This document shows, in pieces, positions 6,854 to 49,971 of a stretch of 64,000 bases of DNA (positions are counted from its first letter, which is position 1; the number at the start of each line of letters is the position of its first letter). Both the position numbers and the translations under genes were made by a program. The DNA is from Streptomyces sp. I6 (GTDB lineage Bacteria > Actinomycetota > Actinomycetes > Streptomycetales > Streptomycetaceae). Below the pieces are notes generated by a model. The model did not search any database. It worked only from the letters and a program-made list of their open reading frames with translations, and was not told the DNA's origin. The stretch covers positions 4,968,501 through 5,032,500 of the forward strand of contig RHDP01000001.1 of NCBI GenBank assembly GCA_003725745.1, in the 5' to 3' direction.

Positions 6854-8485
<1,632 letters not shown>

Positions 8486-8490
8486 CACCC

Positions 8491-8514: not shown

Positions 8515-8630
8515 CGTGAGCACCGCCCCCGCCGGTTCTCCCCTTACCGGCCGGGGGCGCCGCACGTCCCGCGCCCGGCCGGGCGCGGGCATAGGCTGCT
8601 GGGGAGGGGGCCCGCGCGAGGAGGCACGCC

Positions 8631-10435: not shown

Positions 10436-10582
10436 ATGCCCGAGCAGACCCTTCTCCGTCGCCGCGTCCGCCACGCGCCCCGCATCAGCGAGACCGACCG
10501 CAGGAGCACCGCCGCGAACGCCGCCGCGGCCCTGCAGCGCGCCCTGGACCGCAGGGACAACGGCGGCGAGACCGGCCACTGA
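10436..10582 (+). CDS. Small basic protein, 48 residues, unknown function
   Basis: Starts MPEQTLLRRRVRHAPRISET and continues with an alanine-rich probable helix (STAANAAAALQRALDRRD). AAGGAG lies ten bases before the ATG. The N-terminal half is strongly basic, so nucleic-acid contact is possible but unproven. It lies alone between an A/T-rich promoter-like pocket and a strong hairpin (10814-10854). No family recognised. Confidence 0.65.
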   Translation: MPEQTLLRRRVRHAPRISETDRRSTAANAAAALQRALDRRDNGGETGH

Positions 10583-12104: not shown

Positions 12105-12128
12105 CCCGTCGGATCCCGAAACCTCGGA

Positions 12129-12166
12129 GCCGCCGGGTCGCACACGCACCCGGCGGCTTCTCCTCT
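12129..12166 (+). terminator. Terminator after leuB with pyrimidine tract
   Basis: A 10-base stem (12129-12138 with 12148-12157) and a 9-base loop, followed by TTCTCCTCT, 24 bases past the stop codon. It is one of the better intrinsic terminators in the window. Confidence 0.8.
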
Positions 12167-12365
12167 GCGGCCTCCGGGTGCCACCATCGACCCATGGGCC
12201 GCAGCCCACGCTGTTCCGTTCCCGCCCCCACGCACTGCGATAATCGAACGTGGGGCCGCATCATGCGGGGAAGCTCGGACGTCCTGGTACCGATGTACAC
12301 GGGGCGAGCAGACGTACAGACGTGAGCGCGGTCCGTCACAAACACACGGTGAAGGACACGCAGAC

Positions 12366-13454
12366 ATGACGACGCCCTCGATCGAGCTCAAGCCCTCCTC
12401 GACCCCCCTGTCCGACGCGGAGCGCGAGGCGATCCTGGCCAACCCGGGATTCGGCCGCCACTTCACCGATCACATGGTGACGATCAAGTGGACGGAGGGC
12501 CGGGGCTGGCACGACGCCCAGCTGACCCCCTATGCGCAGCTGTCGATCGACCCGGCCAACATGACCCTGCACTACGCGCAGGAGATCTTCGAGGGGCTGA
12601 AGGCCTACCGCAGGCCCGACGGTTCGGTCGCCACCTTCCGGCCCGAGGCGAACGCCCGCCGCTTCCAGCTCTCCGCCCGCCGACTGGCCATGCCGGAGCT
12701 GCCGGTCGAGACCTTCATCGCGGCCTGCGACGCACTCGTCCAGCAGGACAAGGCATGGGTCCCGGAGCACGGTGGCGAGGCCTCCCTCTATCTGCGCCCG
12801 TTCATGTTCGCCAACGAGGTCGGCCTGGGTGTCCGCCCGGCCAACGAGTACCTCTTCATCGTCATCGCCTCGCCGGCCGGCGCGTACTTCCCCGGCGGCG
12901 TCAAGCCCGTCTCCGTCTGGCTGTCGGAGAACTACGTCCGCGCGGTCCCCGGCGGCATGGGCTTCGCCAAGACCGGCGGCAACTACGCCGCCTCCCTCCT
13001 CGCCCAGGCCGAGGCCGCGGCCGAGGGCTGCGACCAGGTCGTCTGGCTCGACGCCCTGGAGCACAGGACCGTGGAGGAGATGGGCGGTATGAACCTGTAC
13101 TTCGTGTACGGGGACAGGATCGTCACACCCGAGCTCACCGGCTCGCTGCTGGCCGGCATCACCCGCGACTCGCTGCTCACCCTCGCACGCGACCTCGGCT
13201 ACGAGTCCGAGGAGGCCACGATCACCACCGACCAGTGGAAGCGCGACACCGAGAACGGCACTCTCACCGAGGTCTTCGCCTGCGGTACCGCCGCCGCCAT
13301 CACGCCCGTGGGCACCGTCAAGTCCACCGGCGGTGAGTGGACCCAGTCCAACGGCGAGCCGGGCAAGGTCACGATGGAGCTGCGCAAGGCCCTCCTGGCC
13401 ATCCAGACCGGTACGGCCGAGGACCGGCACGGCTGGATGCACGAACTCGGCTGA
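12366..13454 (+). CDS. ilvE: Branched-chain amino acid aminotransferase
   Basis: PLP enzyme of fold type IV that transfers the amino group between glutamate and the branched-chain 2-keto acids. 362 residues. Motifs: [20 protein letters not shown] (substrate side), [17 protein letters not shown], the PLP lysine in [16 protein letters not shown], the glutamate in [11 protein letters not shown], and [16 protein letters not shown] for phosphate binding. ATG at 12366; upstream GAAGGA is seen. It lies between leuB and a convergent permease gene. In this organism it serves ilvBNC and leuBCD products. Confidence 0.96.
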
Positions 13455-27271: not shown

Positions 27272-28855
27272 ATGACCGTTTTGGACGAGACCGCGGGCGA
27301 GCCGACCGACGCGCGAGGGCGTGTGGCCGAGCTGCACGCCCTTCGTGAGCAGGCGCGGCGCGGCCCCAGCGACCGGGCCACCGAGGCGCAGCACGCCAAG
27401 GGCAAGCTGACCGCGCGGGAGCGCATCGAGCTGCTGCTGGACGCGGGGTCGTTCCGAGAGGTCGAGCAGCTCCGGCGGCACCGGGCTTCGGGTTTCGGGC
27501 TCGAATCGAAGAAGCCCTACACCGACGGTGTGATCACGGGCTGGGGCACGGTCGAGGGCCGCACGGTCTTCGTCTACGCACACGACTTCCGGATCTTCGG
27601 CGGTGCCCTCGGCGAGGCGCACGCCACGAAGATCCACAAGATCATGGACATGGCGATCGCGGCCGGTGCGCCACTGGTGTCGCTGAACGACGGCGCCGGC
27701 GCCCGTATCCAGGAGGGCGTCTCCGCCCTCGCGGGCTACGGCGGCATCTTCCAGCGCAACACCAGGGCCTCGGGTGTCATCCCGCAGATCAGCGTCATGC
27801 TCGGCCCGTGCGCGGGCGGCGCGGCCTACTCGCCCGCGCTGACCGACTTCGTGTTCATGGTCCGTGAGACCTCGCAGATGTTCATCACCGGCCCGGACGT
27901 GGTCAAGGCGGTCACCGGGGAGGACATCACGCAGAACGGCCTCGGCGGCGCCGACGTGCACGCCGAGACGAGCGGTGTGGCGCACTTCGCCTACGACGAC
28001 GAGGAGACCTGCATCGCGGAGGTCCGCTACCTGCTGTCGATGCTCCCGCAGAACAACCGGGAGAACCCGCCGCAGGTGCCGAGCGAGGACCCGGCGGACC
28101 GCCGCTCCGACGTCCTGCTCGACCTGGTCCCGGCCGACGGCAACCGCCCCTACGACATGCACAAGGTCATCGAGGAGATCGTCGACGACGGTGACTACCT
28201 GGAGATCCACGAGCGCTGGGCGCGCAACATCATCTGCGCCCTCGGCCGTCTGGACGGCCAGGTCGTCGGGATCGTCGCCAACCAGCCGCAGTCGCTGGCC
28301 GGTGTCCTCGACATCGAGGCAAGCGAGAAGGCCGCCCGCTTCGTCCAGATGTGCGACGCCTTCAACATCCCGATCGTCACGCTGCTGGACGTCCCCGGCT
28401 TCCTTCCCGGAGTCGACCAGGAGCACGGCGGCATCATCCGCCACGGTGCGAAACTCCTCTACGCCTACTGCAACGCGACCGTGCCCCGGATCTCGCTGAT
28501 CCTGCGCAAGGCCTACGGCGGCGCGTACATCGTCATGGACTCCCAGTCCATCGGCGCCGACCTCACCTACGCCTGGCCCACCAACGAGATCGCCGTGATG
28601 GGCGCCGAGGGCGCGGCCAACGTCATCTTCCGCCGTCAGATCGCCGACGCCGAGGACCCCGACGCCATGCGCGCCCGCATGGTCAAGGAGTACAAGGCCG
28701 AGCTGATGCACCCCTACTACGCGGCGGAGCGCGGACTGGTCGACGACGTCATCGACCCGGCCGAGACCCGCGAGGTGCTGATCCGCTCCCTCGCGATGCT
28801 CCGCACGAAGCACGCCGACCTGCCGTCCCGCAAGCACGGCAACCCCCCGCAGTGA
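27272..28855 (+). CDS. accB: Acyl-CoA carboxylase beta subunit (carboxyltransferase)
   Basis: Biotin-dependent carboxyltransferase that makes malonyl-CoA (and often methylmalonyl-CoA) for fatty acids and polyketides. 527 residues, crotonase-like. Motifs: HAKGKLTARERIELLLD, DFRIFGGALGEAHATKIHKI, the oxyanion hole in GPCAGGAAYSPALTDFVFM, ETSGVAHFAYDDEE, DVPGFLPGVDQEHGGIIRHG, KAYGGAYIVMDSQSIGADL. Several Streptomyces paralogues exist (accB/pccB type); the downstream epsilon subunit and neighbourhood favour accB. ATG at 27272 has only a weak AGGG upstream. It is followed after 22 bases by accE, and both act with a biotinylated alpha subunit encoded elsewhere. Confidence 0.95.
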   Translation: MTVLDETAGEPTDARGRVAELHALREQARRGPSDRATEAQHAKGKLTARERIELLLDAGSFREVEQLRRHRASGFGLESKKPYTDGVITGWGTVEGRTVFVYAHDFRIFGGALGEAHATKIHKIMDMAIAAGAPLVSLNDGAGARIQEGVSALAGYGGIFQRNTRASGVIPQISVMLGPCAGGAAYSPALTDFVFMVRETSQMFITGPDVVKAVTGEDITQNGLGGADVHAETSGVAHFAYDDEETCIAEVRYLLSMLPQNNRENPPQVPSEDPADRRSDVLLDLVPADGNRPYDMHKVIEEIVDDGDYLEIHERWARNIICALGRLDGQVVGIVANQPQSLAGVLDIEASEKAARFVQMCDAFNIPIVTLLDVPGFLPGVDQEHGGIIRHGAKLLYAYCNATVPRISLILRKAYGGAYIVMDSQSIGADLTYAWPTNEIAVMGAEGAANVIFRRQIADAEDPDAMRARMVKEYKAELMHPYYAAERGLVDDVIDPAETREVLIRSLAMLRTKHADLPSRKHGNPPQ

Positions 28856-29207: not shown

Positions 29208-29229
29208 GTTCGGGGCGTACCGTCATCGG

Positions 29230-29277
29230 CCTGCCCGCCTGCCCGCCTGCCCGCCTGCCCGCCTGCCCGCCTGCCCG
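29230..29277. repeat. Octamer tandem repeat, six copies
   Basis: CCTGCCCG is repeated six times without error, in the 407-base gap 29082-29488 between accE and the convergent conservon. Apart from the accE terminator, nothing else gene-like lies in this gap. Confidence 0.9.
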
Positions 29278-29488
29278 CCCGGCGCGCGGGCACCGCACGC
29301 GATGGGCGGGCGCCCGGCATCCCGCCCCACGCAGCCGTCCGCCCCGCCGGACGAGGTCCAGGCGGGGCGGATCGACCGACGGCGTCGGGGGGACGGACGG
29401 GGCCCTCACCGTACCCGTCCCGGCCGGGACGGGGGAGGGGCCGCGGACGCGCTGGGACGGCGCGCCCGCGGCTGGCGGCGCGACGGCC

Positions 29489-30070
29489 CTACCGCAGCCG
29501 GGCCATGAGTGCGTGTTCGACGAGGGTGATGAGGGCGCTTTTGGCGTCGGCGCGGTGGCGGGCGTCGGTGGTGATGATGGGTGCGTCGGGTCCGATCTGG
29601 AGGGCTTCGCGGACTTCGTCGGGGGTGTAGGGCTGGTGTCCGTCGAAGCCGTTGAGGGCGATGACGAAGGGGAGGCCGCTGTTCTCGAAGTAGTCGACGG
29701 CGGGGAAGCAGTCGGCGAGTCTGCGGGTGTCGACGAGGACGACGGCGCCGATGGCGCCGCGGACGAGGTCGTCCCACATGAACCAGAAGCGGTCCTGTCC
29801 GGGGGTGCCGAAGAGGTAGAGGATGAGGTCCTGGTCGAGTGTGATGCGGCCGAAGTCCATGGCCACGGTGGTGGTGGTCTTGTCGCCGGTGTGTGTGAGG
29901 TCGTCGATGCCGGCCGACGCGGACGTCATGACGGCCTCGGTGCGCAGCGGGTTGATCTCCGAGACGGCGCCGACGAACGTGGTCTTGCCCACGCCGAAGC
30001 CACCCGCCACCACGATCTTCGCACTGGTGGTTGAGCGGGCAGCACCGCCGCTAGAGCTTGCGAAGTCCAC
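29489..30070 (-). CDS. cvnD: Conservon CvnD GTPase (distal copy)
   Basis: 193 residues, Ras/MglA-like small GTPase. P-loop GGFGVGKTTF near residue 23; switch region with TSASAGIDDLT; G3-like LFGTPGQDRFWFMWDDLVRG; G4-like ALNGFDGH. CvnD proteins work at the membrane with the kinase-like CvnA and the CvnB and CvnC proteins. The ATG overlaps the end of cvnC by 20 bases. The coding DNA is identical to the other cvnD (34824-35405) except in the last codons: bases 29496-30098 equal 34831-35433. Confidence 0.95.
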   Translation of the reverse strand: MDFASSSGGAARSTTSAKIVVAGGFGVGKTTFVGAVSEINPLRTEAVMTSASAGIDDLTHTGDKTTTTVAMDFGRITLDQDLILYLFGTPGQDRFWFMWDDLVRGAIGAVVLVDTRRLADCFPAVDYFENSGLPFVIALNGFDGHQPYTPDEVREALQIGPDAPIITTDARHRADAKSALITLVEHALMARLR

Positions 30071-30617
30071 TGAGCACCCTTTCGAGCAGTGTCACGTCTG
30101 GCTGGCCGCCGGCGGTCTCGTCACCGCCGGGCTGGTGAATGGCGACGAGTCCGGCCTCGGCCAGGTCGGCTACGAGGATCCGGGCGACGCCGAGGGGGAT
30201 GGAGAGGAGTGCCGAGATCTCGGCCACCGACTTGATCTCGAAGCACAGCCGGCAGATCCGCTGGTGCTCGGGCAACTGCCCTTGCAGCCGCGCGGGATCG
30301 GCCGTGGTACTGACCAGCGCCTCGATGGCGAGCTGGTAGCGCGGCCGGGTCCGGCCGCCGGTCATCGCGTACGGACGCACCAACGGGTTGCTGCCGCCCG
30401 ACGCGGAAGCCGGTTCCGGGGCCCGGCGGGGAGCCGCCGGGTGGCTCCGGGGTCCCTGCGGCTGGTGGTACGGGTCGTACGGCTGCTGCGGCCGATGGTA
30501 GGGCTGGGGACCACCGCCCCTGCTCGGTGAAGAGGGGAAGTTGAAGCGGTTCTGAGAGTGCTCACCCGGAGACTGCTGGGCCCCGTCGTATGGGTGTCCG
30601 CCTGGTGGTGTTGCCAC
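30051..30617 (-). CDS. cvnC: Conservon CvnC, DUF742 protein (distal copy)
   Basis: 188 residues. A long Pro/Gln/Tyr-rich N-terminal region (QPYHRPQQPYDPYHQPQGPR) is followed by the DUF742 winged-helix-like domain (NPLVRPYAMTGGRTRPRYQL, LPEHQRICRLC, SVAEISALLSIPLGVARILV, PDVTLLERVLSGLRKL). GTG at 30617 has GGAGGAGG just upstream. The N-terminal extension is about 50 residues longer than in the other conservon copy. A central 85-base segment (30298-30382) is identical to 35630-35714; the rest has diverged. Confidence 0.92.
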   Translation of the reverse strand: MATPPGGHPYDGAQQSPGEHSQNRFNFPSSPSRGGGPQPYHRPQQPYDPYHQPQGPRSHPAAPRRAPEPASASGGSNPLVRPYAMTGGRTRPRYQLAIEALVSTTADPARLQGQLPEHQRICRLCFEIKSVAEISALLSIPLGVARILVADLAEAGLVAIHQPGGDETAGGQPDVTLLERVLSGLRKL

Positions 30618-30713
30618 GATTCCTCCTCCGAGTGCCGTACGTCGGTCCATGTCCCTGTGGAGCCGCGCCACCGCACCCTATGGTGCGGTGGCGGCAAACG
30701 CACTGCCGTTCAG

Positions 30714-31136
30714 CTAGTTGAGAAGACTTCCCTGCAGTTCGGCACGCAGGTCCGGGGTGAGGACGGTGCCGGCGCGGTCGACTAGGAGGGCCATCTCGTA
30801 GCCCACGAGGCCGATGTCCGCGTCGGGGTGGGCGAGTACGGCCAGTGAGGAGCCGTCGGAGATGGACATGATGAAGAGGAAGCCGCGCTCCATCTCCACG
30901 ACGGTCTGGTTGACCGCTCCGCCTTCGAAGATCCGGGACGCTCCCGCGGTCAGCGAGGTCAGTCCGGACGCCACCGCCGCCAGCTGGTCGGCGCGGTCGC
31001 GCGGAAACCCTTCGGACATCGCCAGCAGGAGTCCGTCGGCGGAGACCACCACGGTGTGGGACACCCCGGGGGTGTTGTCCACGAAGTTGGTGATCAACCA
31101 GTTGAGATTCTGCGCCGCCTGGCTCATCGGGCTCAC
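30714..31136 (-). CDS. cvnB: Conservon CvnB, roadblock/LC7 protein (distal copy)
   Basis: 140 residues, a roadblock/LC7 fold: AAQNLNWLITNFVDNTPGVS, VSADGLLLAMSEGFPRDRAD, LSLTAGASRIFEGG-type core (SGLTSLTAGASRIFEGGAVN), ERGFLFIMSISDGSSLAVLA. These proteins act as GTPase partners. GTG at 31136 starts one base after the cvnA stop codon and is served by AGGAG inside the cvnA end; ATG at 31127 is an alternative. Bases 30737-31135 match 35961-36359 of the other copy with a single mismatch (30783). Confidence 0.95.
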   Translation of the reverse strand: MSPMSQAAQNLNWLITNFVDNTPGVSHTVVVSADGLLLAMSEGFPRDRADQLAAVASGLTSLTAGASRIFEGGAVNQTVVEMERGFLFIMSISDGSSLAVLAHPDADIGLVGYEMALLVDRAGTVLTPDLRAELQGSLLN

Positions 31137-31137
31137 A

Positions 31138-34100
31138 CTAACGCTCCTGGTTGTAGGTACTGCCCGGGCCGAAGCCCGATCCGTTCGTGTCCGTTCCCGC
31201 GCTGCGTCCCTGCTGGACACCGCGCCGCAGGTTGCTCAACCTGCCACGCACGTCCTCAGGGGCGCGGGACACCTGAGGGCCGCTCTGCGGGGTCTGCTCC
31301 GCCGTGCCCTCGATCAGATTGGCCTTGGGAACCCGGCGGGGAAGCCCTGACGAGGTGACTCCGCCGGCCGCAGGCTTGCGGAGCTTCTCGGCCCGCTGCC
31401 AGCGCTCGTCGTTCTTCGAGCGCCACTCGTCGGGGCCGTCCGCCTCCGTGCCTCCGGCCTGGTCCGGCTGGGGGGCCTGCTCGGCCCGTCCCCCGTCCGG
31501 CCGCCGCCGGCGGTGGAGGACTGCCACTGCGCTCCCTGCTGCGCCGGCTGTCCCTGCTGTCCTGGCTGGCTGCTGCCGCGGCGCGGCAGACCGGCGTCGG
31601 TCAGCTGGTGGCCGGAACCGGTGGCCGGACCCGGACGTTCGAAGCCTACGCGCTCCGCGCCGTTCGCGGGAGCGGGGGGAGCAGATTCCGCATCCGCCCG
31701 GTACTCCGGCTCGTACGCCTCCTGGTACGCGTTCCGGTCCGTCCACTCCCCCTGGCGGGACCGGGAGGCGTAGCCGTTGCCGTACTCCGGCGCGGAGCCC
31801 TGCGGGCCATCGTACGAGGCTTCCGGATACGCCTGCTCCTGGCGCTCCGGGTAACCGCCGGAAACCTGGAACTCGCCGGTGTTCTCGTAGCCGTTGGCGT
31901 CGTAGCCGCTGCGGTCGTGGCCGTTCCGGTCGTAGCCGCCGGGCTCGTAGCCGCCCGGCTCGTGCCCGTTCCGGTCGTACCCGTTCCGGTCGTACGCGGA
32001 CTGCCGCTCCTGTGCGTAGCCCTGCTCGTACTGCTCCTCGGCGTAGCTCCCCTGATCGGCGTAGCCCTGCTCGGTGTCTTCGGGGAACGGCGGGTGGTCG
32101 CCGTCTGCCTGTGCCTCCAGCGCCGCACGCCGTTCCCCGCGCATCAGCGAGCGGTTGACCGGGTCCAGCCGACGGGAACCGGACGGCTGCTCCTCGTAGC
32201 GCGAGTCGTCGAAACCGAGTTCCTCGGCGGTGAGCACCGGAGCGGCCTCAAAGGACGTCTGCGCCGGGATCATCTGGGAGACCGTGAAGTCGTCCTCGGG
32301 GACCTCCTCGCCACCGCCACCGTGGGTGATCGCGTCCGGGAGCATGACCAGCGACGTCGTACCGGCCTGCTCGCCCGAGGGGCGGAGCTGGACGCGGATG
32401 CCGTGGCGGTCGGACAGCCGGCCGACCACGAAGAGGCCCATGCGCTGCGAGACGGCGGCGTCCACCGTCGGCGGGTTGGCCAGCTTGTGGTTGATGTCGG
32501 CGAAGTCCTCGGCGGTCAGGCCGATGCCCTTGTCATGGATCTCGATCATGACCCGGCCGTCGGGCAGCCGCGTCGCGGTGACCCGGACCTTGGTCTGCGG
32601 GGAGGAGAACGTCGTGGCGTTCTCCAGCAGCTCGGCGAGCAGGTGCACGAGGTCGGTCACGGCACGGCCGTGGATCTCGGTCTCGGGGACGCCGGTGAGC
32701 TCGATGCGCTCGTAGGACTCCACCTCGGAGGAGGCGGCCCGGAGCACGTCCACCAGCGGCACCGGCTGGTTCCAGCGGCGGCCGGGCTCCTCGCCGGCCA
32801 GGACGAGGAGGTTCTCGCCGTTGCGGCGCATACGGGTCGCCAGGTGGTCCAGCTTGAAGAGGTTCTCCAGCTGGTCCGGGTCGGCCTCGTTGTTCTCCAG
32901 GTCGGTGATCAGGGTCAGCTGCCCCTCGATCAGGGACTGGTTGCGCCGGGACAGATTGGTGAAGATCGCGTTGACGTTCCCGCGGAGCATGGCCTGCTCG
33001 GCGGCGAGCCGCACGGCCTCGCGGTGCACCTGGTCGAAGGCGCGGGCGACCTCGCCGATCTCGTCCTGGCTGTCGATCGGGATCGGCTGCACACGGGTGT
33101 CCACCCGGCCCGGCTCGGTGCGCGAGAGCTGGTCGACGAGCATGGGCAGGCGCTGCTCGGCGATACCGAAGGCGGCGGTGCGCAGCCGGTGCATCGAGCG
33201 GCTCATCTGACGGGCCACCATGCCGGCCAGGATGAACGCGGTGAGCAGGGCGATGACGACGATCAGACCGTTGACGAAGGCATCGGTCCTGGCCTCGTCG
33301 GAGATCCGTGCCGCCTCGGCCACGGCCTTGTCGACGAGTTCCTTCTCGACCTCGCTGTAGCCCTCGAACTTGGCGGTCGCGGCGGGCATCCAGACGTCCT
33401 TGGTGACGCCGATCTGCGCGAGCTCGTCGGGGCCGGCACCGGTGCTGATCGCACCGACCATGCCGCCGAGGACCGAGCCGTCCTCGTCCTTGGGCGGGGG
33501 CCGGAACTCCCGGCCCGAGGCGGCCGCGGCGGTGGCGGCGGCGGCCAGCGCCTTCCGGCCCTCCTCCGTCTTCTTGGCCATGACCTCCTTCAGCCGGTCC
33601 ACGTCGGCCTGGGTGCCACCGGACTGGTACTCACCGAGGGCGATGCCCTCGAGGTAGGCGTAGGAGCTGAAGGCGATGGTCTGACCGGCCCTGATGTCCT
33701 GCTTCTTGCTCGGGCGGACGAGCAGTTCCATGCCGATGGAGCGCTGGAGCGACTCGGCGGCCTTGGCCAGCTGGATCGCGTACACCATCCGGCCGTAGCT
33801 CGTGACGTTGCCGGTGCCGAGGCCGAGTTCGTTGGCGAACTCCATGAGGTAGTGCTGGACGCCGACGTAGCTCTCCTGGGTGGCGACCGGGCCCCGCAGG
33901 TCGTCGGACGGGTCGTCGGGGTCCTCGCCCTCGGACTTGGCCGCCGTCTCGAACTGGGTCGTGTAGGCGACCTCGCGCAGCTTCTCGAGGCCGGGTTCCG
34001 CGGCACGGAACAGGTTCAGGCGCCGCTGGAGGCCCTCCTTCTGCGGCATGTCCTTGACGGCCTCGTCGAACTTCCGCTTGGCGGCGTCCGTGGCGGCTCG

Positions 34101-34487
34101 CGCCTCCGTGACGACCCTGCTCTCCCTGTCGCCCTTCAGCAGGGGCTCCGCGGTGAGGTCCCGCTCGTTGAGGAGGGCCTGGCCGTACTCCGACGCGGCG
34201 CGGACGATGAGCGCCGTCTTCTCGGCGTCCTGGGCCTCGTTCCAGGTGTCGATCGACCCCTTCACCTGGAAGCCGCCCATGACGAGGCCGACCAGCACGG
34301 GTATGAGGAGGATCGCGTTCAGCCGGGTCGGCACACGCCAGTTGCGCGGCGACAGCCTGCTGGAGCTGCCACCGGCACTGGTGGGCTCCACGGGCTGCGC
34401 CTCCGCGGGCGACGCCGCTGCGCGCAGGGGCGGGGTGAAGTTGCCCCGCGACTGCTGCTCCGCGGAGCTCGTCTTGCTTCGCCTCAC
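31138..34487 (-). CDS. cvnA: Conservon CvnA, nitrate/nitrite-sensor-type histidine kinase (distal copy, frame broken)
   Basis: About 1116 residues after repair. One transmembrane segment near 57-72 (LNAILLIPVLVGLVMGGFQV), an external NIT-type sensor domain, a second transmembrane segment (IVVIALLTAFILAGMVARQM), HAMP, a dimerisation segment with KLDHLATRMRR, and an ATPase domain with N-box LLAELLENATTFSSP and G-box IEIHDKGIGL. A long disordered tail carries YDRNGH/YEPGGY-type repeats (DNA about 31890-31995). The tail changes frame at the CCCCC run 31490-31494; one extra base gives GGRAEQAPQPDQAGG and the conserved end TSSGLPRRVPKANL...NLRRGVQQGR. GTG at 34487. First gene of cvnABCD; the peptide ligand or signal is unknown. 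Confidence 0.9.
31890..31995 (-). repeat. In-frame repeats in the CvnA1 tail
   Basis: Degenerate repeats of about 21-24 bases encode YDRNGYDRNGH, EPGGYEPGGYDRNGH, DRSGYDANGYENTG. They are low-complexity Gly/Tyr/Asn/Asp-rich units in the cytoplasmic tail of the kinase. Confidence 0.7.
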
Positions 34488-34823
34488 TCGACCAACAACC
34501 TCTCGGCGTCGGCACCTAGGTTGTGCCGATAATTGTTCAGGGCCGTACTACTCATGAGTTCGTTGATTTCAGCACGCCCGGGGGGTCGGCTCCAAACAGC
34601 GGGAACCGGCCGAGCCTGGCTCGTCGAACCGGAGATAAAACGGGCATAAATAGCGAGCCCCGGCAAAAAACGGGGCCTGCGTGAGCACAGCGGTACCAGC
34701 CGGATGCGTCGGGTGTCCGAGCCCTCCGAATTCTCTGTCGAAACGTTATGAACATGGAGGCGGGCCGTGTCGAACGACACGGCCCGCTCATCAAGGTCTA
34801 CGACAACTGCCTTGTGATCACTT
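34488..34823. other. 336-base intergenic region between the two conservons
   Basis: Contains the terminator of the upstream conservon (34760-34787) and, nearer to cvnA, an A/T-rich stretch unusual for the window (GATAAAACGGGCATAAATAG at about 34633-34652 and CCGATAATTGTTCA at about 34526-34539). It likely holds the promoter of the distal conservon. A weak hairpin GCCCCG-gcaaaaaa-CGGGGC lies at about 34657-34676. No gene. Confidence 0.5.
34760..34787. terminator. Terminator after the proximal cvnD
   Basis: A 13-base perfect stem (34760-34772 with 34775-34787) around two bases, 37 bases beyond the cvnD stop codon on the minus strand. It separates the two conservons into two transcripts. Confidence 0.8.
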
Positions 34824-35405
34824 CTACTTGAGCCGGGCCATGAGTGCGTGTTCGACGAGGGTGATGAGGGCGCTTTTGGCGTCGGCGCGGTGGCGGGCGT
34901 CGGTGGTGATGATGGGTGCGTCGGGTCCGATCTGGAGGGCTTCGCGGACTTCGTCGGGGGTGTAGGGCTGGTGTCCGTCGAAGCCGTTGAGGGCGATGAC
35001 GAAGGGGAGGCCGCTGTTCTCGAAGTAGTCGACGGCGGGGAAGCAGTCGGCGAGTCTGCGGGTGTCGACGAGGACGACGGCGCCGATGGCGCCGCGGACG
35101 AGGTCGTCCCACATGAACCAGAAGCGGTCCTGTCCGGGGGTGCCGAAGAGGTAGAGGATGAGGTCCTGGTCGAGTGTGATGCGGCCGAAGTCCATGGCCA
35201 CGGTGGTGGTGGTCTTGTCGCCGGTGTGTGTGAGGTCGTCGATGCCGGCCGACGCGGACGTCATGACGGCCTCGGTGCGCAGCGGGTTGATCTCCGAGAC
35301 GGCGCCGACGAACGTGGTCTTGCCCACGCCGAAGCCACCCGCCACCACGATCTTCGCACTGGTGGTTGAGCGGGCAGCACCGCCGCTAGAGCTTGCGAAG
35401 TCCAC
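34824..35405 (-). CDS. cvnD: Conservon CvnD GTPase (proximal copy)
   Basis: 193 residues, identical to the distal CvnD except the last residue (Lys for Arg). It has the same P-loop GGFGVGKTTF, GTPGQDRF and ALNGFDGH motifs. The DNA identity is complete over 603 bases (34831-35433 equals 29496-30098), including silent positions, and extends upstream into the end of cvnC. That indicates recent gene conversion or duplication rather than conservation of the protein alone. It overlaps cvnC by 20 bases. Confidence 0.95.
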   Translation of the reverse strand: MDFASSSGGAARSTTSAKIVVAGGFGVGKTTFVGAVSEINPLRTEAVMTSASAGIDDLTHTGDKTTTTVAMDFGRITLDQDLILYLFGTPGQDRFWFMWDDLVRGAIGAVVLVDTRRLADCFPAVDYFENSGLPFVIALNGFDGHQPYTPDEVREALQIGPDAPIITTDARHRADAKSALITLVEHALMARLK

Positions 35406-35793
35406 TGAGCACCCTTTCGAGCAGTGTCACGTCCGGCGTACCGCCGGCCTCTCCGTTACCCGGCTGGTGGATCGCCACCATGCCGGCCTCCGCCAGGTCC
35501 GCCACCAGGATCCGCGCCACGCCCAGAGGCATCGACAGCAGCGCCGACACCTCGGCGACGGACTTGACCTCCCGGCAGAGATGGCAGATCCGCTGGTGCT
35601 CGGGCAGCAGCGTCGACAGGTGCGCCGGGTCGGCCGTGGTACTGACCAGCGCCTCGATGGCGAGCTGGTAGCGCGGCCGGGTCCGGCCGCCGGTCATCGC
35701 GTACGGACGCACCAGCGGCTGGTCGCCTTCATGACCGTAGTCGGTGTCCATGGGGACACCGTACGGATCGTGAGAGGCGGGGGGCGGGGTCAT
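35386..35793 (-). CDS. cvnC: Conservon CvnC, DUF742 protein (proximal copy)
   Basis: 135 residues: a short N-terminus (TPPPASHDPYGVPMDTDYGH) then the DUF742 domain (QPLVRPYAMTGGRTRPRYQL, LPEHQRICHLCREVKS, LSMPLGVARILVADLAEAGM, PDVTLLERVLSGLRKL). ATG at 35793 has CGGAGG four bases upstream; the longer open frame to 35913 has no ribosome site. It lies between cvnB (144-base gap) and cvnD (20-base overlap). It differs from the distal copy mainly by lacking the Pro/Gln/Tyr-rich extension. Confidence 0.92.
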   Translation of the reverse strand: MTPPPASHDPYGVPMDTDYGHEGDQPLVRPYAMTGGRTRPRYQLAIEALVSTTADPAHLSTLLPEHQRICHLCREVKSVAEVSALLSMPLGVARILVADLAEAGMVAIHQPGNGEAGGTPDVTLLERVLSGLRKL

Positions 35794-35937
35794 GAATCCT
35801 CCGGGCGTGACAGCAAGTGGTCGGCTGTGCCGTCTGACTGGGCCGGTGGGGGGCCGGTTGGGGCGGCCGGACGGTGAGTGGACGGATGTGGGGTTGCCTG
35901 GGGCGCATCCCACGGACGGCGGACTCGCCGAGGGTTC

Positions 35938-36360
35938 CTAGTGGAGAAGGCTCCCTTGGAGTTCGGCACGCAGGTCCGGGGTGAGGACGGTGCCGGCGCG
36001 GTCGACCAGGAGGGCCATCTCGTAGCCCACGAGGCCGATGTCCGCGTCGGGGTGGGCGAGTACGGCCAGTGAGGAGCCGTCGGAGATGGACATGATGAAG
36101 AGGAAGCCGCGCTCCATCTCCACGACGGTCTGGTTGACCGCTCCGCCTTCGAAGATCCGGGACGCTCCCGCGGTCAGCGAGGTCAGTCCGGACGCCACCG
36201 CCGCCAGCTGGTCGGCGCGGTCGCGCGGAAACCCTTCGGACATCGCCAGCAGGAGTCCGTCGGCGGAGACCACCACGGTGTGGGACACCCCGGGGGTGTT
36301 GTCCACGAAGTTGGTGATCAACCAGTTGAGATTCTGCGCCGCCTGGCTCATCGGGCTCAA
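35938..36360 (-). CDS. cvnB: Conservon CvnB, roadblock/LC7 protein (proximal copy)
   Basis: 140 residues, identical in protein to the distal CvnB except the final residue (His for Asn). TTG at 36360 lies directly after the cvnA stop codon with AGGAG eight bases upstream; the distal copy uses GTG at the same place. The ATG nine bases further in is an alternative start in both. The near-identity (399 bases with one difference) parallels that of cvnD. Confidence 0.94.
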   Translation of the reverse strand: MSPMSQAAQNLNWLITNFVDNTPGVSHTVVVSADGLLLAMSEGFPRDRADQLAAVASGLTSLTAGASRIFEGGAVNQTVVEMERGFLFIMSISDGSSLAVLAHPDADIGLVGYEMALLVDRAGTVLTPDLRAELQGSLLH

Positions 36361-39300
36361 CTAACGCTCCTGCTGGTGAGTGGGGCCGATGTTGAAGCTG
36401 CCGGTGTTTCCGGAGCCGCCCGCCTGGCGCCCCTGCTGGATGCCCCGGCGGAGATTGGTCAGCCGGCCCGCACGTCGTCCGGCGCGCGGGACACCTGCGG
36501 ACCGGCCTGGTGGGGCTGCTCCTGCGCGGTTCCCGGCACGAGGTTGGCGCGCGGGACCCGCCGGGGCAGACCCGAGGTGGTGACACCGCCGGCCGCGGGC
36601 TTGCGGACCCGCTCGGCCTGGCGCACCAGCTCGTCGTTGGGCGAGGTCCGCCACGAGGCGGCACCCGCGTTGTGCTGGCCGCCCTGGGCCGGCTGGCCCT
36701 GGTCGGCCCCCGGGTGGCGGGACGGGCCCGACGGGGCGGGGCGCCCGGCCGGCTGGGACTGCGGCGGCTCGGCCGGGGGCTGCGCGGCTCCGTTCACCCC
36801 GCCGCCCTGGTTCTGGTGGAACCAGTTCGTCTCCAGCGTGTCGTACAGCGGCGTACGGCCGTCGCCGGGGCCCGACGCCGGCGGCAGTGCCTCCGGCTGC
36901 GGCTGGGCGGGCAGGCTGCCCACGGCCGGACGCGGGGCGCCGAAATCGGCACCGCCCCGCCGCGGACGCGGGGCTCCGGGCCGGCCCTCGCCCGCCGCAG
37001 GCGGACGCGGGGCGCTGAAGTCGGGACGCGCGAACTGCTCGGTGGCCGCCGGGTCCTGGGCCGAGGGCCGGCCCCCGTAGCCGTCGCCGCCGGCACCGGG
37101 CGCGGCGAACCGGCCCGTGGACTCCGGGTCCTCGTGGCCCCGCGGCGCCTCCTGGGCGGAACGCGACTGCTCCCCGCCCCATTCGGCGGGCTGCGGGCGC
37201 TGCCGGCGGCCGCCGCTGCCCGGCAGTTCGGCGCGCGGACCGCCGCCGGGCGCCGGGCGCCCGGAGTCACGGCCCCGCTCGCCCCGGCCCCGGTCCTGCA
37301 TGCCCGGTCCGGCCGTACGGCCGCGGCCGGAGTCCGTGCCGAACGCGGCGAACGTGCCCGTGGAGGCGCCGCCCTGCCGGGAGAAGTCCTGTCCGGAGAA
37401 GTCCTGCTGTGCCGGACCCTGTGCCGGACCGCCCTGCTGCGGGCCGCCGTCGCGGCCCGGAAGCGCCGCACGGGGAGCAGACCCCGCGCCGACCTGTCCG
37501 CGCTCTCCGCCCGGGGCGGGCCGACCGCCCGGGCCGGCCTGGGGACCGCTGCCGAGACCGGGGCGTCCACCGCCGGCGGGAGCCTGCGGAGCGCCGTTCT
37601 GCCCGCCCGCACCGGGCTTGCCCGGAGCCCTCTTGCCGCCGTGGGCGACATCGACGGGGAGCATGACCAGCGCGGTGGTGCCTCCGGAGTCGGAGGGGCG
37701 GAGCTGGATGCGGATGCCGTGCCGCAGGGACAGGCGGCCGACCACGAACAGACCCATGCGGCGGGACACCGAGACGTCCACGGTCGGCGGCGAAGCCAGC
37801 CGCTCGTTGATCGCGGCGAGGTCCTCCGGGGAGAGTCCGATACCGGTGTCGTGGATCTCTACGAGCACCCGGCCGTCGGGCAGCGCGTGACCGGTCACGC
37901 GCACCTTGGTCTGCGGCGAGGAGAACGACGTCGCGTTCTCCAGCAGCTCTGCGAGGAGGTGCACGAGGTCGTTGACCACACGGCCCGCGACATCGGTCGC
38001 CGGGACGGAGGCCAGCTCGATGCGCTCGTACTGCTCCACCTCGGAGGCGGCGGCACGGAGCACGTCGACCAGGGGGACGGGCCTGGTCCAGCGGCGGCCC
38101 GGCTCCTCACCCGCGAGGACGAGGAGGTTCTCGCCGTTGCGTCGCATACGCGTCGCCAGGTGGTCCAGCTTGAAGAGGGAGGAGAGCTGGTCCGGGTCGG
38201 CCTCGCGGGACTCCAGCTCGGAGATCAGCGACAGCTGACGCTGGATCAGACCCTGCGAACGGCGCGACAGGTTGGTGAACATCGCGTTGACGTTGCCTCG
38301 CAGGAGGGCCTGCTCGGCGGCGAGGCGGACCGCCTCGCGGTGCACGTCGTCGAAGGCCGCGGCCACCTTGCCGATCTCGTCCGGGAGTGCACGCCCACGG
38401 ACTCGACCGTGGTGTCCACGTCCTGCGGGTCGGCCTCGGAGAGCTGCTTGACCAGCTCGGGCAGGCGATCCTGGGCGACCCTGGTGGCGGTGTCCTGCAG
38501 CCGGCGCAGCGAGCGGATCATGGACCGGGCGACGACGAAGGCGCCGACGAGCGACACGCCGAGCACCAGCAGGATGAGCGCACCGTTGATGATGGCGTCC
38601 TGCTGCGACTCCTGCTTGAGCTCGCGGGCCTTGCTCTCCATCTCACCGAGAAGCGTCTTCTCGATGGTGTTCATCGCGTCGATCTTGGTGTCGGCCTGGT
38701 CCGTCCAGTCCTTGTAGCCGCGGCGCTCGGCACCGGCGAGGCCGCTGGGGCGGCTGAGGACGCGGGTGGCGTACTCGTTCGCCTCCTCGATCTCGGAGTT
38801 GCCGTCCACCAGCGGCGCGGTCAGCTCCTCGGCGTTGCCGCCGAGAGAGGCGTAGATGCGCTTGAACGAGGCGAGGGCCTGCTTCTCGTTCTCGGCGGCG
38901 TCGTCACCGGTGAGGCGGTCGTTCTCGCTCATCTCGCCGGCGGTCTTGGCGTTGGCCGGGAGCGCGGCCGCGATGACTGCGCGCTGGATGGACGCGTACT
39001 CCTTGGCGGCGGAGAAGGCCGCCAGGGCACGGGTACGCTTGATCATCTCGGGGTTGTTGGTGGCCTGGGCCATGTCCTGGGACAGCGTGAGCAGCGACGT
39101 GATCAGCCGGTTGTACCGGTTCACCGTCTGCGTGGTCGAACCCTCGCCGTCGTAGGCGGTGCCCCGGATCTTGGCGATCGTCGTCACCTGCTGGGCGATC
39201 TGGCTGACATTGGCGTGGATGCTCTCCAGCGCCTCGTCGCCCGAGGTGTCGCCGACGGACACGGTCGCGGCGAGGAAGGCTTCCCTCCGGCGGTCCGTCT

Positions 39301-39808
39301 CCCGGCGGGGCTGGGTGACCTCGAAGGCGTCGGCGTTGCCGTTGTTCGCCAGCGGACCGGCCGCGTGGTCGCGCTCCTCCTGGAGCGCCTCGGCGAGGGC
39401 CGTGGCCTCCTTGGTCAGCTTGGTGAGCAGCTGCATGTGGTCCAGCTGCTCGATGTCGTTCATCGACTCGTTGATCCGCAGGCCACCCAGAGTGGTCGCC
39501 GCGACGACGGGGAGCGCGAGCAGGGAGACCAGCCGGGTGCTGATGCGCCAGTTGCGCAGGGCGATACGGGAGCCCGTGTCGGACGGGCTCTTGGCCTTGG
39601 GCCGGTCCGCCGGTTCCGCGGCGGCGGGGGCCGCGCCGTGGCGTGCTCCGCGGTCACCGCTGTCGGCTGCCGGTCCCTGGTTCTGGGCGTGCTGGGGCGA
39701 GGGGCCGCGGTCACTCGCGCCGCGCGGCTCCTTCTCAGCGGCAGCTTCCCCTTGGCCCTTGCGGGCCTGGGGACGCCCCATGCCATCCCTCTTGAAACGT
39801 CCCTGCAC
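36361..39808 (-). CDS. cvnA: Conservon CvnA, sensor histidine kinase (proximal copy, frame broken twice)
   Basis: About 1149 residues after repair. A transmembrane segment near 99-113 (LVSLLALPVVAATTLGGLRI), an external NIT-type sensor domain (DHMQLLTKLTKEATALAEAL and on), a second segment (GALILLVLGVSLVGAFVVAR), HAMP, KLDHLATRMRRNGENLLVLA, N-box LLAELLENATSFSSP, G-box VEIHDTGIGL and GLFVVGRLSLRHG. A Pro/Gly/Gln-rich tail of about 350 residues follows, ending in the conserved SGLPRRVPRANL and LTNLRRGIQQGR. Frame changes lie near 38381 (between VGVHSR and DEIGKVAAAFDD) and at the CCC run 36477-36479; one base at each repairs them. GTG at 39808. First gene of the proximal cvnABCD. Confidence 0.9.
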
Positions 39809-41395: not shown

Positions 41396-42901
41396 CGGAC
41401 CCTCCCCCCTGCTCTCGGCTCCGCTCGGGCAGGGGGTACCCCCCGCGTACGTTTCTGTCCCTCGCCGACCGGCAACCCCCATGTGGGTCTGGTCCGCACC
41501 GCCCTGTTCAACTGGGCCTTCGCCCGGCACAACCAGGGCACCATGGTCTTCCGCATCGAGGACACGGACGCGGCACGCGACTCCGAGGAGTCGTACGCCC
41601 AGCTCCTGGAATCACTGCGCTGGCTGGGGCTCGACTGGGACGAGGGGCCCGAGGTCGGCGGGCCGCACGAGCCGTACCGCCAGTCGCAGCGCATGGACCT
41701 CTACCGGGACGTCGCCGGGAAGCTGCTGGCCGGCGGGTACGCCTACCGCTGCTACTGCACGGTCACCGAGCTCGACGAGCGCCGCGAGGCCGCCCGCGCC
41801 GCCGGCCGGCCCTCCGGCTACGACGGCCACTGCCGCGAGCTGCCCGGCGACCGGAAGGCCGCCTACGAGCGCGAGGGCCGCGAGTCGATCATCCGGTTCC
41901 GGATGCCCGACGAGCCGATCACCTTCACCGACCTGGTCCGCGGTGAGCTCACCTTCACCCCGGACAACGTGCCGGACTACGGCATCGTCCGGGCCAACGG
42001 CGCGCCCCTCTACACGCTGGTCAACCCGGTCGACGACGCGCTGATGGACATCACCCACGTGCTGCGCGGCGAGGACCTGCTCTCCTCCACCCCGCGCCAG
42101 ATCGCGCTCTACGGGGCACTGATCGAGCTCGGCGTCGCCCATCGGATCCCTGCTTTCGGGCATCTGCCGTACGTCATGGGCGAGGGCAACAAGAAGCTCT
42201 CCAAGCGCGACCCGCAGGCGTCGCTCAACCTCTACCGGGAGCGCGGCTTCCTGCCGGAGGGCCTGCTCAACTACCTCTCCCTGCTCGGCTGGTCCTTCTC
42301 CGCGGACCAGGATGTCTTCTCCCTCGCCGAGATGGTCGGGAGGTTCGACATCGCGGACGTCAACGCCAACCCGGCCCGCTTCGACCTCAAGAAGGCCGAG
42401 GCGATCAACGCCGACCACATCCGCCGGCTGGACGTCAAGGCGTTCGCCGAGGCCTGCGAGCCATGGCTGCGGGCCCCGCACGCGAACTGGGAGCCCGAGG
42501 ACTTCGACCGGCCCGCGTGGGAGGCCGTCGCCCCGTACGCCCAGACCCGGCTGACGGTCCTCTCCGACATCACCGCCAACGTCGACTTCCTCTTCCGCAA
42601 GGAGCCGGTCGAGGACGGGGCCTCCTGGCAGAAGGCGATGAAGGAGGGCTCCGACGCCCTGCTGCGCACGGCCCGCGAGAAGCTCGCGGCCGCCGACTGG
42701 GCAAGCCCGGAGGCGCTGAAGGAGGCGGTCCTGGCCGCGGGCGGGGAACACGGCCTCAAGCTCGGCAAGGCACAGGCCCCCGTCCGGGTCGCGGTCACCG
42801 GCCGCACGGTGGGCCTGCCGCTGTTCGAGTCGCTGCAGATCCTGGGCCGCGAGAGGTCGCTGGCGCGCATCGACGCGGCGCTGGAGAAGCTCGGGGCGTA
42901 A
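41388..42901 (+). CDS. gltX: Glutamyl-tRNA synthetase (frame broken near start, odd N-terminus)
   Basis: Charges tRNA-Glu; its tRNAs lie 1.1 kb downstream. Class I synthetase: HIGH-type PSPTGNPHVGLVRTALFNW, FRIEDTDAARDSEESY, PDYGIVRANGAPLYTLVNPV, HVLRGEDLLSSTPRQI, KLSKRDPQ (KMSKS equivalent), and an anticodon-binding C-terminal domain. The GTG at 41388 overlaps the previous gene. From MAN the next 16 codons read through a palindromic element (41405-41436). The frame then shifts in the C run 41439-41444; one more C gives GVPPRVRFCPSPTGNPHVG and about 504 residues. Without repair the HIGH motif is lost, so a sequencing error is likely. Confidence 0.9.
41405..41436. repeat. Palindromic element inside the gltX N-terminus
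   Basis: CCCCCTGC (41405-41412) pairs with GCAGGGGG (41429-41436) around a loop TCTCGGCTCCGCTCGG. From memory, hairpins with a GGCTxCGCTCG loop and a following GGTACCCCC recur between Streptomyces genes. Here one appears to sit within a coding start. Confidence 0.55.
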
Positions 42902-43925: not shown

Positions 43926-43997
43926 TGGCCTATGGTGTAATTGGCAGCACGACTGATTCTGGTTCAGTTAGTCTTGGTTCGAGTCCAGGTAGGCCAG
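43926..43997 (+). tRNA. tRNA-Gln (CTG), first copy
   Basis: 72 bases. Acceptor TGGCCTA pairs with TAGGCCA; D-arm GGTGTAATTGGCAGC; anticodon loop TTCTGGT in stem ACTGA/TCAGT, giving anticodon CTG; T-arm CTTGG-TTCGAGT-CCAGG. CCA is not encoded. Confidence 0.95.
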
Positions 43998-44018
43998 CTC
44001 GCAGAGCTCATCTGCAAA

Positions 44019-44091
44019 GCCCCCGTTGTGTAGCGGCCTAGCACGCTGCCCTCTCAAGGCAGTAGCGCCGGTTCGAATCCGGTCGGGGGTA
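44019..44091 (+). tRNA. tRNA-Glu (CTC), first copy
   Basis: 73 bases. Acceptor GCCCCCG... pairs with CGGGGGT; anticodon loop CTCTCAA, anticodon CTC; T-loop GTTCGAATC. The anticodon stem is CTGCC/GGCAG, with a U-A pair where the other two copies have C-G. Confidence 0.95.
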
Positions 44092-44178
44092 CAGATCCTT
44101 CCCGTGTGATCACCAGGTCGCTCCCGGTGGTCCCGCAGTGAAAAAACATCCGGTTCCGACCGGGTGGGGATCGTCCAG

Positions 44179-44251
44179 GCCCCCGTTGTGTAGCGGCCTA
44201 GCACGCCGCCCTCTCAAGGCGGTAGCGCCGGTTCGAATCCGGTCGGGGGTA
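44179..44251 (+). tRNA. tRNA-Glu (CTC), second copy
   Basis: 73 bases, same as the first copy except for the anticodon stem CCGCC/GGCGG. Anticodon CTC. Confidence 0.95.
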
Positions 44252-44272
44252 CCAGCTGGTCTAAACCACCAG

Positions 44273-44344
44273 TGGCCTATGGTGTAATTGGCAGCACGAC
44301 TGATTCTGGTTCAGTTAGTCTTGGTTCGAGTCCAGGTAGGCCAG
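44273..44344 (+). tRNA. tRNA-Gln (CTG), second copy
   Basis: 72 bases, identical to 43926-43997. Anticodon CTG. Confidence 0.95.
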
Positions 44345-44372
44345 CTGATCCGTCTTGATGGATCGAGATCTT

Positions 44373-44445
44373 GCCCCCGTTGTGTAGCGGCCTAGCACGC
44401 CGCCCTCTCAAGGCGGTAGCGCCGGTTCGAATCCGGTCGGGGGTA
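44373..44445 (+). tRNA. tRNA-Glu (CTC), third copy
   Basis: 73 bases, identical to 44179-44251. Anticodon CTC. Last tRNA of the cluster; a strong terminator begins seven bases after it. Confidence 0.95.
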
Positions 44446-44451
44446 CACCGA

Positions 44452-49350: not shown

Positions 49351-49971
49351 GTGAACAAGGCGCAGCTCGTAGAAGCGATTGCCGACAAGATGGGCGGTCG
49401 GCAGCAGGCCGCCGACGCTGTCGACGCGGTCCTCGACGCGATCGTCCGCGCGGTTGTCGGCGGCGACCGGGTTTCGGTCACCGGCTTCGGCTCGTTCGAG
49501 AAGGTGGACCGTCCGGCCCGCTACGCCCGCAACCCGCAGACGGGCGAGCGCGTACGGGTCAAGAAGACCTCGGTGCCGCGGTTCCGCGCGGGCCAGGGCT
49601 TCAAGGACCTGGTGAGCGGCACGAAGAAGCTCCCCAGGGGTGGCGAAGTGTCCGTCAAGAAGGCTCCCAAGGGCAGCCTTCAGATGGGGGCCGCCGCGAA
49701 GAAGGCCGCAGCCAAGAAGGCGACGGCCAAGAAGGCCGCGGCGAAGAAGACCACCGCCAAGAAGACCACCGCCAAGAAGACGGCGGCGAAGAAGACCACC
49801 GCCAAGAAGACCACCGCCAAGAAGACGGCGGCGAAGAAGACCACCGCCAAGAAGACGGCCGCGGCGAAGAAGACCGCTCCCGCCAAGAAGGCGACGGCCA
49901 AGAAGGCGCCGGCGAAGAAGGCCAGCGCGCGCAAGACCTCCGCCAAGAAGGCCACCGCCCGCAAGAAGTAA
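49351..49971 (+). CDS. hupS: HU-family nucleoid protein with lysine-rich tail
   Basis: 206 residues. Residues 1-90 are a full HU domain ([60 protein letters not shown]). The remaining 115 residues consist of KKTTA, KKAAA and KKATA repeats like those of histone H1 and mycobacterial Hlp. HupS is the sporulation-associated HU of Streptomyces; it binds DNA and compacts spore nucleoids. GTG at 49351 is preceded by GGGGAAG. An A/T-rich upstream stretch (TTTGATTTGCGGTATATATC at about 49269-49288) probably holds the promoter. Confidence 0.97.
49700..49960 (+). repeat. Repeats encoding the HupS lysine tail
   Basis: Imperfect 15-base units of the AAGAAGACCACCGCC and AAGAAGACGGCGGCG types. They keep frame throughout. 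Confidence 0.85.

Follow-up and report, generated by a model that had tools for sequence, protein, structure and literature searches.

The gene pair tufA/tufB, which encodes EF-Tu, offers the closest parallel: as we propose for the locus studied here, a duplicated GTPase gene whose copies occupy different genomic contexts has been kept uniform by gene conversion recurring over long times (PMC6053082; PMC5485169). A catalogue of 26 prokaryotic genes with long-lasting concerted evolution, whose paralogues are likewise alike at silent sites, assigns 22 of the 26 to proteins of stable complexes, and no word starting in Streptomyces-, GTP- or roadblock- occurs in its main text (PMC6053082). Actinobacterial conservons are described with the same cvnA-B-C-D order and the same domains as found here, and in S. 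coelicolor CvnA1 (SCO5544) and CvnA2 (SCO5540) have neighbouring locus numbers (PMC9739842; PMC13343842). Among the mycobacterial homologues MfpD is reported to be a GAP and MfpC a GEF (PMC13343842), and by analogy CvnB may be the GAP and CvnC the GEF of CvnD. In the literature searched, including a small part of the mostly unrelated papers matched by a broad query, we found no report of homogenisation between the two systems. The tuf copies lie far apart in the genome and encode one translation factor. The copies here belong to a tandem of signalling operons whose sensors differ; unlike in tuf, unconverted genes lie between converted ones. Alternation gene by gene within one operon is what distinguishes the present case of concerted evolution from tufA/tufB.

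The window, i.e. the whole stretch of 64,000 nucleotides of Streptomyces sp. I6 that was analysed, contains two tandem conservons. Based on open reading frames (ORFs) and Pfam matches, both have the order kinase (CvnA), roadblock protein (CvnB), DUF742 protein (CvnC) and small GTPase (CvnD); the genes are abbreviated A to D below. Table 1 lists the features. By synteny the upstream operon is probably cvn1 and the downstream operon cvn2; the names of the two neighbouring ORFs, accD-like and gltX-like, are provisional. The tandem pair is also present in S. violaceoruber NRRL S-981 (L028), with accD adjoining. In this assembly the reading frame of cvnA1 shifts near 38366-38381; in some relatives, e.g. 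L009 and L013, both parts match a single uninterrupted stretch. The HAMP domain of cvnA2 scored under its Pfam cut-off. We set the start of cvnB2 by hand at 31142, the position from which relatives match; the ORF opens upstream at 31220. The Pfam match of CvnD is ATP_bind_1 and its likeness to Ras-type proteins is weak. Solved homologues of the roadblock protein are a chain named cvnB5 (3leq) and 9hef.

Table 1. Genes, neighbours and shared tracts of the two conservons (positions in the window).
Feature	Position	Strand	Basis or partner
cvnA1, N-terminal part, NIT sensor domain (cvn1)	38246..39808	-	ORF; PF08376 (NIT)
cvnA1, C-terminal part, HATPase_c, shifted frame	36459..38366	-	ORF; PF02518
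cvnB1, roadblock	35938..36360	-	PF03259; tract 35961-36359 vs cvnB2
cvnC1, DUF742	35386..35913	-	PF05331; 35630-35714 identical to cvnC2
cvnD1, GTPase	34824..35405	-	PF03029; 34831-35433 identical to 29496-30098
cvnA2, sensor kinase (cvn2)	31314..34487	-	single ORF; NIT and HATPase_c
cvnB2, roadblock	30714..31142	-	ORF; PF03259
cvnC2, DUF742	30051..30671	-	PF05331
cvnD2, GTPase	29489..30070	-	PF03029
accD-like neighbour, synteny anchor	27272..28855	+	ORF; matches in relatives
gltX-like neighbour, opposite side	41483..42901	+	ORF; matches in relatives
Tract D, cvn2	29496..30098	.	34831-35433; 603/603 bases equal
Tract D, cvn1	34831..35433	.	29496-30098
Tract B, cvn2	30737..31135	.	35961-36359; 398/399 bases
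Tract B, cvn1	35961..36359	.	30737-31135
Shared tract in cvnC2, 85 bases	30298..30382	.	35630-35714; 85/85 equal

A preliminary description of the window had reported these identities (603/603, 85/85 and 398/399) with offsets of 5335, 5332 and 5224, and direct comparison reproduced all of the values exactly. Tract D begins within codon 192 of cvnD and extends 28 bases beyond the cvnD start into cvnC; the second stretch that cvnC1 has in common with cvnC2 is its end, which lies inside this tract. The sole mismatch of tract B is position 30783. Outside the tracts a self-BLAST gave 85% identity around cvnB and its flank and 78% over ~890 bases of the kinase core. Third positions of copy 1 and copy 2 agree at 0.995 for D and 0.964 for B, at 0.665 for the A core and 0.679 for the C domain. 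Of the relatives sampled, L088 is the nearest; its orthologues of the four genes agree with those of the window at 0.84-0.91 of third positions. The likeness of the two copies in D and B thus exceeds chance.

We compared 145 tandem conservon pairs from two sources: the best 80 matches to the window CvnD (79 distinct loci), which form a biased sample, and 120 genomes drawn evenly from the genus, 106 of which yielded stretches of the conservon locus or pieces of it. Excluded by name were L083 (another genus, conservons further apart), L047 (gaps), L152 (cut cvnD1) and the fragments of the window's own genome, L001 and L002. We also removed six exact duplicates and loci that were not parsed as a pair, e.g. 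where cvnD was truncated or contained gaps (L150, L151, L153, L154, L186, L187). Individual genes containing a stop or N were dropped as well, namely A in copy 1 of L045 and D in copy 1 of L060 and of L169. The exclusion of cut or gapped copies probably biases the set against the most homogenised drafts.

The gene trees differ strongly in the number of copy-label changes that they need: 1 for the A core, 3 for the C domain, 27 for B and 62 for D. A genome's own two copies were sisters in 0/134 genomes for A, 1/144 for C, 17/143 for B and 48/143 for D, and in the kinase core the own paralogue was nearest in none of the 134. Clustering by operon had been named beforehand as the outcome that speaks against conversion. 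For cvnA it was indeed found, with its one label change; cvnD does not cluster by operon, and the AU test rejected a single copy-1 clade with p 6.5e-37 in 26 genomes (10 hand-picked, 16 random). The D tree of these 26 contains an eight-genome group including S. violaceoruber, and in six of these eight, against the general pattern, the D copies stay in separate groups, though with weak support. Two genomes whose cvnD is only 75-76% identical to that of the window have own D copies that are 98.8% and 99.7% alike. Near-identical genes in tandem operons would also be expected of recent, independent duplications of the whole conservon, after which cvnA and cvnC diverged quickly. This scenario is hardly conceivable and is refuted by the trees of the kinase core and the DUF742 domain, which separate by operon, and by the 52 of 244 kinase columns in which residue frequencies distinguish the copies by at least 0.8 (59 columns by at least 0.5). 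As A and C separate by operon across the set, the duplication predates the sampled genomes and is older than the species compared; the kinase and DUF742 genes have stayed distinct, as the preliminary description had it. For D the own paralogues are in many genomes more alike than orthologues, at silent sites and after an older duplication, as in concerted evolution.

At silent sites the same order of genes appears. Third-position agreement within versus between genomes was.702/.692 for A,.649/.636 for C,.715/.633 for B and.846/.714 for D, with a similar pattern in the CvnD-match genomes (64) and the even-draw genomes (80). The own pair stood above every orthologue of either copy in 46/143 genomes for D, 13/143 for B, 0/134 for A and 1/144 for C. 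When compared with every copy 2 of other genomes only, it came out on top in 95/143 for D (failing in 48), 35/143 for B, 3/134 for A and 5/144 for C. Conversion of cvnD is common, short of universal. Exact runs of at least 100 nt in D were shared by the own copies in 88/132 genomes compared to 10 of 656 random copy-1/copy-2 pairs between genomes; for A the counts were 0/132 and 0/658. The longest shared run fell in D in 112 of the 132 genomes, in B in 17, in C in 3 and in A in none, and a run test for mosaic structure gave p<0.01 in 110/132. The segment of the 85-base cvnC tract reached an agreement of at least 0.98 in 6/132 own pairs and 13/17292 between-genome pairs. At a G+C content of 72% and with a highly conserved CvnD protein, one might suspect that common codon usage or purifying selection is enough to make the copies alike, with no recombination. 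However, A and C of the same genomes provide the baseline for common composition, and their excess of third-position agreement is ~0.010 and ~0.013 compared to 0.08 for B and 0.13 for D. Furthermore the agreement is clustered along D in 71/132 and along B in 30/132 genomes (p<0.01), which leaves this explanation extremely unlikely. Homogenisation of B and D is correlated over genomes (Spearman 0.40, p 2e-6); for A and D (-0.12, p 0.16) and for C and D (0.14, p 0.10) there was no significant correlation.

Assembly or polishing could in principle lay the bases of one copy over the other. The window assembly is 87.4% complete with a broken cvnA1 frame and thus probably carries errors. Among 28 loci inspected, 8 have a contig end within cvnB or cvnD, so near-identical copies do trouble assemblers. 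Nevertheless, 51 assemblies of few contigs agree with the full set: D agreement was.863 for the own pair compared to.707 for others, the own pair ranked top in 39/51, and A and C were hardly affected. The tracts of the window also differ in offset. We therefore regard an artefact as very unlikely; the few-contig assemblies exclude it as a general cause, in line with the initial judgement on the window.

We conclude that the two conservons undergo recurrent concerted evolution by gene conversion, with a probability of roughly 95%. The earlier claim of repeated conversion is strongly borne out for cvnD and is patchy for cvnB, given the 27 label changes and 17/143 sister pairs. An old tandem duplication with repeated conversion since is, as a whole, very probably the best explanation. 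The duplication giving cvn1 and cvn2 would have preceded the divergence of the sampled genomes. Recombination between direct repeats ~5.3 kb apart would then copy short tracts, at most roughly as long as a gene, between the operons with no exchange of flanks. In bacteria, conversion tracts of this kind can arise by RecA-type repair, the pathway we presume here. Tracts in cvnD would have been fixed repeatedly across the genus and those in cvnB in some lineages, but hardly ever those in the cvnA core or the greater part of cvnC.

Raw counts of the direction of transfer lean from cvn2 to cvn1. Based on the nearest relative, D was scored as cvn2 to cvn1 in 18 cases and as the reverse in 1, with 16 undecided (35 of 110 genomes informative); shared diagnostics gave 107 versus 19 across 132 genomes. 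Under a stricter rule the copy-2 state at informative sites made up 54% in A, 65% in C, 59% in B and 64% in D, and copy 1 was more often the odd one out in all four genes taken whole. We dropped a genus-wide donor bias because the controls A and C lean the same way; copy 1 seems to evolve faster. For the window alone, the copy-2 marker residues in CvnB1 point to a transfer of B from cvn2 to cvn1. In L152, a single contig, cvn2 is kept next to only the last two thirds of cvnD1, with no matches to cvnA1, B1 or C1 beside it, so the pair is not always retained. A crossover between the cvnD copies would leave a clean hybrid, which L152 does not show, so this genome is no evidence for loss by that step.

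The preliminary description had also suggested an interchangeable CvnB/CvnD pair, which, judged by residues, may be half right. Across CvnD 18-192, the G domain, 0/175 positions showed a copy frequency difference of at least 0.5; residues 10, 11, 13 and 193 remain copy-specific. The two proteins are seldom identical all the same (G domain identical in 10/132 genomes, median 97.7%). In most genomes the two CvnB proteins can still be told apart by residues specific to each copy, and all three marker residues are common to both in 37/143. In the window both carry N78, I91 and A108, a set found in 90/143 B2 and in 3/143 B1, the latter including the window and its nearest relative. An interchangeable CvnB would accordingly suit the window lineage and not most of the set.

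Why D and B are affected can be explained in two ways. Conversion may be passive, with protein conservation and high G+C keeping cvnD and part of cvnB recombinable and no role for shared function; we put this slightly below an even chance. The excess rises with local baseline similarity (Spearman 0.77, 90-nt windows), and baseline identity per window is 0.84-0.92 in D, 0.75-0.86 in A and 0.73-0.88 in C. At like identity, however, the genes differ: B with a baseline of 0.81-0.84 has an excess of 0.09-0.11, A with 0.82-0.86 only 0.006-0.022. B, however, borders on a segment with an identity of 0.92, and runs shared between genomes are slightly longer in B than in A (median 38 vs 31 nt), so gene-wide similarity could still explain this difference. 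Alternatively, selection may eliminate tracts from the sensor and the putative GEF (CvnC) and tolerate or favour them in the CvnD GTPase and its putative GAP (CvnB). Two sensor/GEF inputs would then fan in on what is, chemically, nearly one GTPase. A GTPase pool common to both sensors and both GEFs is a consequence that we consider about as credible as not, leaning to the negative. More tentative is the stronger version, in which selection acts through conversion so that both operons have one GTPase in common, in some lineages also one GAP. Two different kinases and GEFs would then set the GTP state of one pool, and conversions of sensor or GEF would be purged for merging the inputs.

For practical purposes, breaks within cvnB and cvnD may be expected in draft assemblies, and cvnD is ill suited as a marker to distinguish Cvn1 and Cvn2. 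Signal flow through conservons is little understood, and the genus-wide record of exchange amounts to a natural experiment in which the sensor and the DUF742 GEF appear private and the GTPase, and partly the GAP, shareable. If this is true, cross-talk between Cvn1 and Cvn2 is predicted, and deletions of a single operon may be masked or may act via GTPase dosage.

The preliminary description had reported three tracts shared between the upstream conservon (cvn1) and the downstream one (cvn2), and their coordinates and matches were borne out. In each operon Pfam found NIT and HATPase_c (CvnA), Robl_LC7 (CvnB), DUF742 (CvnC) and ATP_bind_1 (CvnD). A plus-strand gene that we take to be accD-like lies next to them, and a perfect 8-base tandem repeat (6.4 copies, 29229-29279) separates it from cvnD2. 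By gene order the two operons fit Cvn1 and Cvn2 of S. coelicolor, where CvnA1 is SCO5544 and CvnA2 is SCO5540 (PMC9739842).

Conservon features and shared tracts in the window
Feature	Position	Strand	Basis
Upstream conservon (cvn1)	~39808 to 34824	minus	ORFs
Downstream conservon (cvn2)	34487 to 29489	minus	ORFs
Presumed accD-like gene	after downstream conservon	plus	ORF
Tract in cvnD	29496-30098 and 34831-35433		
85-base tract in cvnC	30298-30382 and 35630-35714		
Tract in cvnB	30737-31135 and 35961-36359		

Third-position agreement between the two copies of the window was 0.995 for cvnD, 0.964 for cvnB, 0.679 for the cvnC domain and 0.665 for the kinase core. Against the orthologues in L088, the nearest relative among the sampled loci, we observed 0.84-0.89 (D), 0.87-0.89 (B), 0.88-0.91 (C) and 0.89-0.90 (A). 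Thus cvnD and cvnB are closer to the neighbouring operon than to their orthologues, whereas the opposite holds for cvnA and cvnC. The best of the other cvnD relatives in this genome reached 77% identity over the matched part and therefore none of these has been homogenised with the tandem pair. A tRNA array at 43926-44446 holds five genes (Gln-Glu-Glu-Gln-Glu); its tRNA-Glu copies show 97-100% identity over 74 bases and are a further small homogenised family in the conservon neighbourhood. At 49691-49959 a 15-base unit is repeated ~17 times; its candidate reading frame would be lysine- and alanine-rich, presumably resembling a basic protein tail.

The window's assembly has 2 contigs and is 87.4% complete, and the cvnA1 coding sequence occupies two overlapping frames (38246-39808 and 36459-38366) with a shift near 38366-38381, so indel errors are likely. 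The split itself looks like such an error and less probably a true break. These errors have no bearing on the shared tracts.

For the comparison we collected 79 loci from the best 80 matches of a CvnD protein search of genome contigs. A cvnD DNA search of 121 genus genomes, including the window's, matched 104 at E 1e-150 or better. After exclusions, the final set comprised 145 tandem pairs: the window, 64 protein-search loci (one of them, L075, from Streptacidiphilus) and 80 loci from the window's genus. Gene trees were built with FastTree. The kinase core showed 1 copy-label change and no sister pairs, with third-position agreement of 0.702 within and 0.692 between genomes (134 genomes), and the DUF742 domain 3 changes and 1 sister pair (0.649 and 0.636; 144 genomes). 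For CvnB we counted 27 changes and 17 sister pairs (0.715 and 0.633) and for CvnD 62 and 48 (0.846 and 0.714), each across 143 genomes; in 95 of these the own CvnD pair exceeded every copy 2 of other genomes. Both subsets gave like results, as did 51 assemblies with at most five contigs or chromosome records. A copy-1 clade for cvnD was rejected by IQ-TREE (lnL 1307 lower, p-AU 6.5e-37) for 26 genomes, 16 random and 10 hand-picked, several of the latter for strong homogenisation. Six genomes in a group of eight with S. violaceoruber keep their D copies separate in this tree, with weak support. In two loci of the window's genus (L148, L149) cvnD is 75-76% identical to the window's, yet the own copies are 98.8% and 99.7% alike; they have drifted together as a pair.

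In 110 of the 132 genomes, shuffling the variable sites along end-to-end A-B-C-D alignments showed clustered agreement (p<0.01). The longest own-pair run lay in cvnD in 112 genomes, in cvnB in 17 and in cvnC in 3. Exact own-copy runs of at least 100 nt occurred in D in 88/132 genomes, in B in 27, in C in 1 and in A in none; between genomes the counts were 10/656, 4/656, 0/651 and 0/658 for D, B, C and A. The excess, that is own-pair third-position agreement above the between-genome level, spans almost the whole of cvnD except the first codons and is lower at both ends of cvnB. The C domain has a small excess (0.036) in its first segment only, the site of the 85-base tract in the window's genome.

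Non-reciprocal transfer of this kind, in which tracts move and the flanks stay fixed, is gene conversion. A model is provided by the tuf genes, where conversion begins anywhere within the gene and is limited by the gene bounds (PMC5485169). The excess rises with local similarity (Spearman 0.77). This speaks for a passive model, which might account for the escape of cvnA and cvnC; at like local identity, however, there was excess in B segments and hardly any in A segments.

Of 28 loci chosen as cut, unpaired or divergent, 8 had a contig end within cvnB or cvnD (L063, L067, L153, L155, L183, L192, L194, L195). Such breaks are expected where repeats are nearly identical, so the most strongly homogenised cases are probably under-represented in draft assemblies. 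The single-contig genome of L152 gave no match to cvnA1-B1-C1, either at the locus or within 19.9 kb upstream of it; of cvnD1 only the last two thirds remain, within a longer open frame, and cvn2 is present (6574-7512, 7822-12710). Hence cvn1 can be lost. In L189 and L190 (small genomes of 5.8 and 6.5 Mb) cvnA1 seemingly adjoins accD, a different arrangement, and the contig ends shortly past the kinase.

Our search of mostly open-access literature found no paper joining conservons with gene conversion or concerted evolution. A 2011 paper by Takano is cited as dealing with cvn1. A catalogue of 26 genes under long-lasting concerted evolution contains, in its main text, no words starting with Streptomyces or GTP (PMC6053082). 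BldC directly targets cvn1 in S. venezuelae and WhiAB binds the cvn1 promoter (PMC6428758).

Copy-marking columns (frequency difference of 0.5 or more between copies) numbered 59/244 in the kinase, 15/132 in DUF742 and 8/142 in CvnB. Across the set the CvnD G domain (residues 18-192) had none; copy-marking CvnD residues were limited to 10, 11, 13 and 193. CvnB positions 78, 91 and 108 are copy-specific in most genomes. The copy-2 set was found in both copies of the window and its nearest relative, but in only 3/143 CvnB1 overall, so the interchangeable CvnB proposed in the preliminary description would hold for the window's lineage as a lineage trait and not set-wide.

Homogenisation of B and D co-varies over genomes (0.40), that of A and D or C and D does not. 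Among the mycobacterial homologues, the CvnB-type protein is a GAP and its CvnC-type counterpart is likely a GEF (PMC13343842); thus the homogenised parts would be the GTPase and partly its GAP, and the private ones the sensor and the GEF. The simplest functional reading is that two inputs may act on one GTPase pool.
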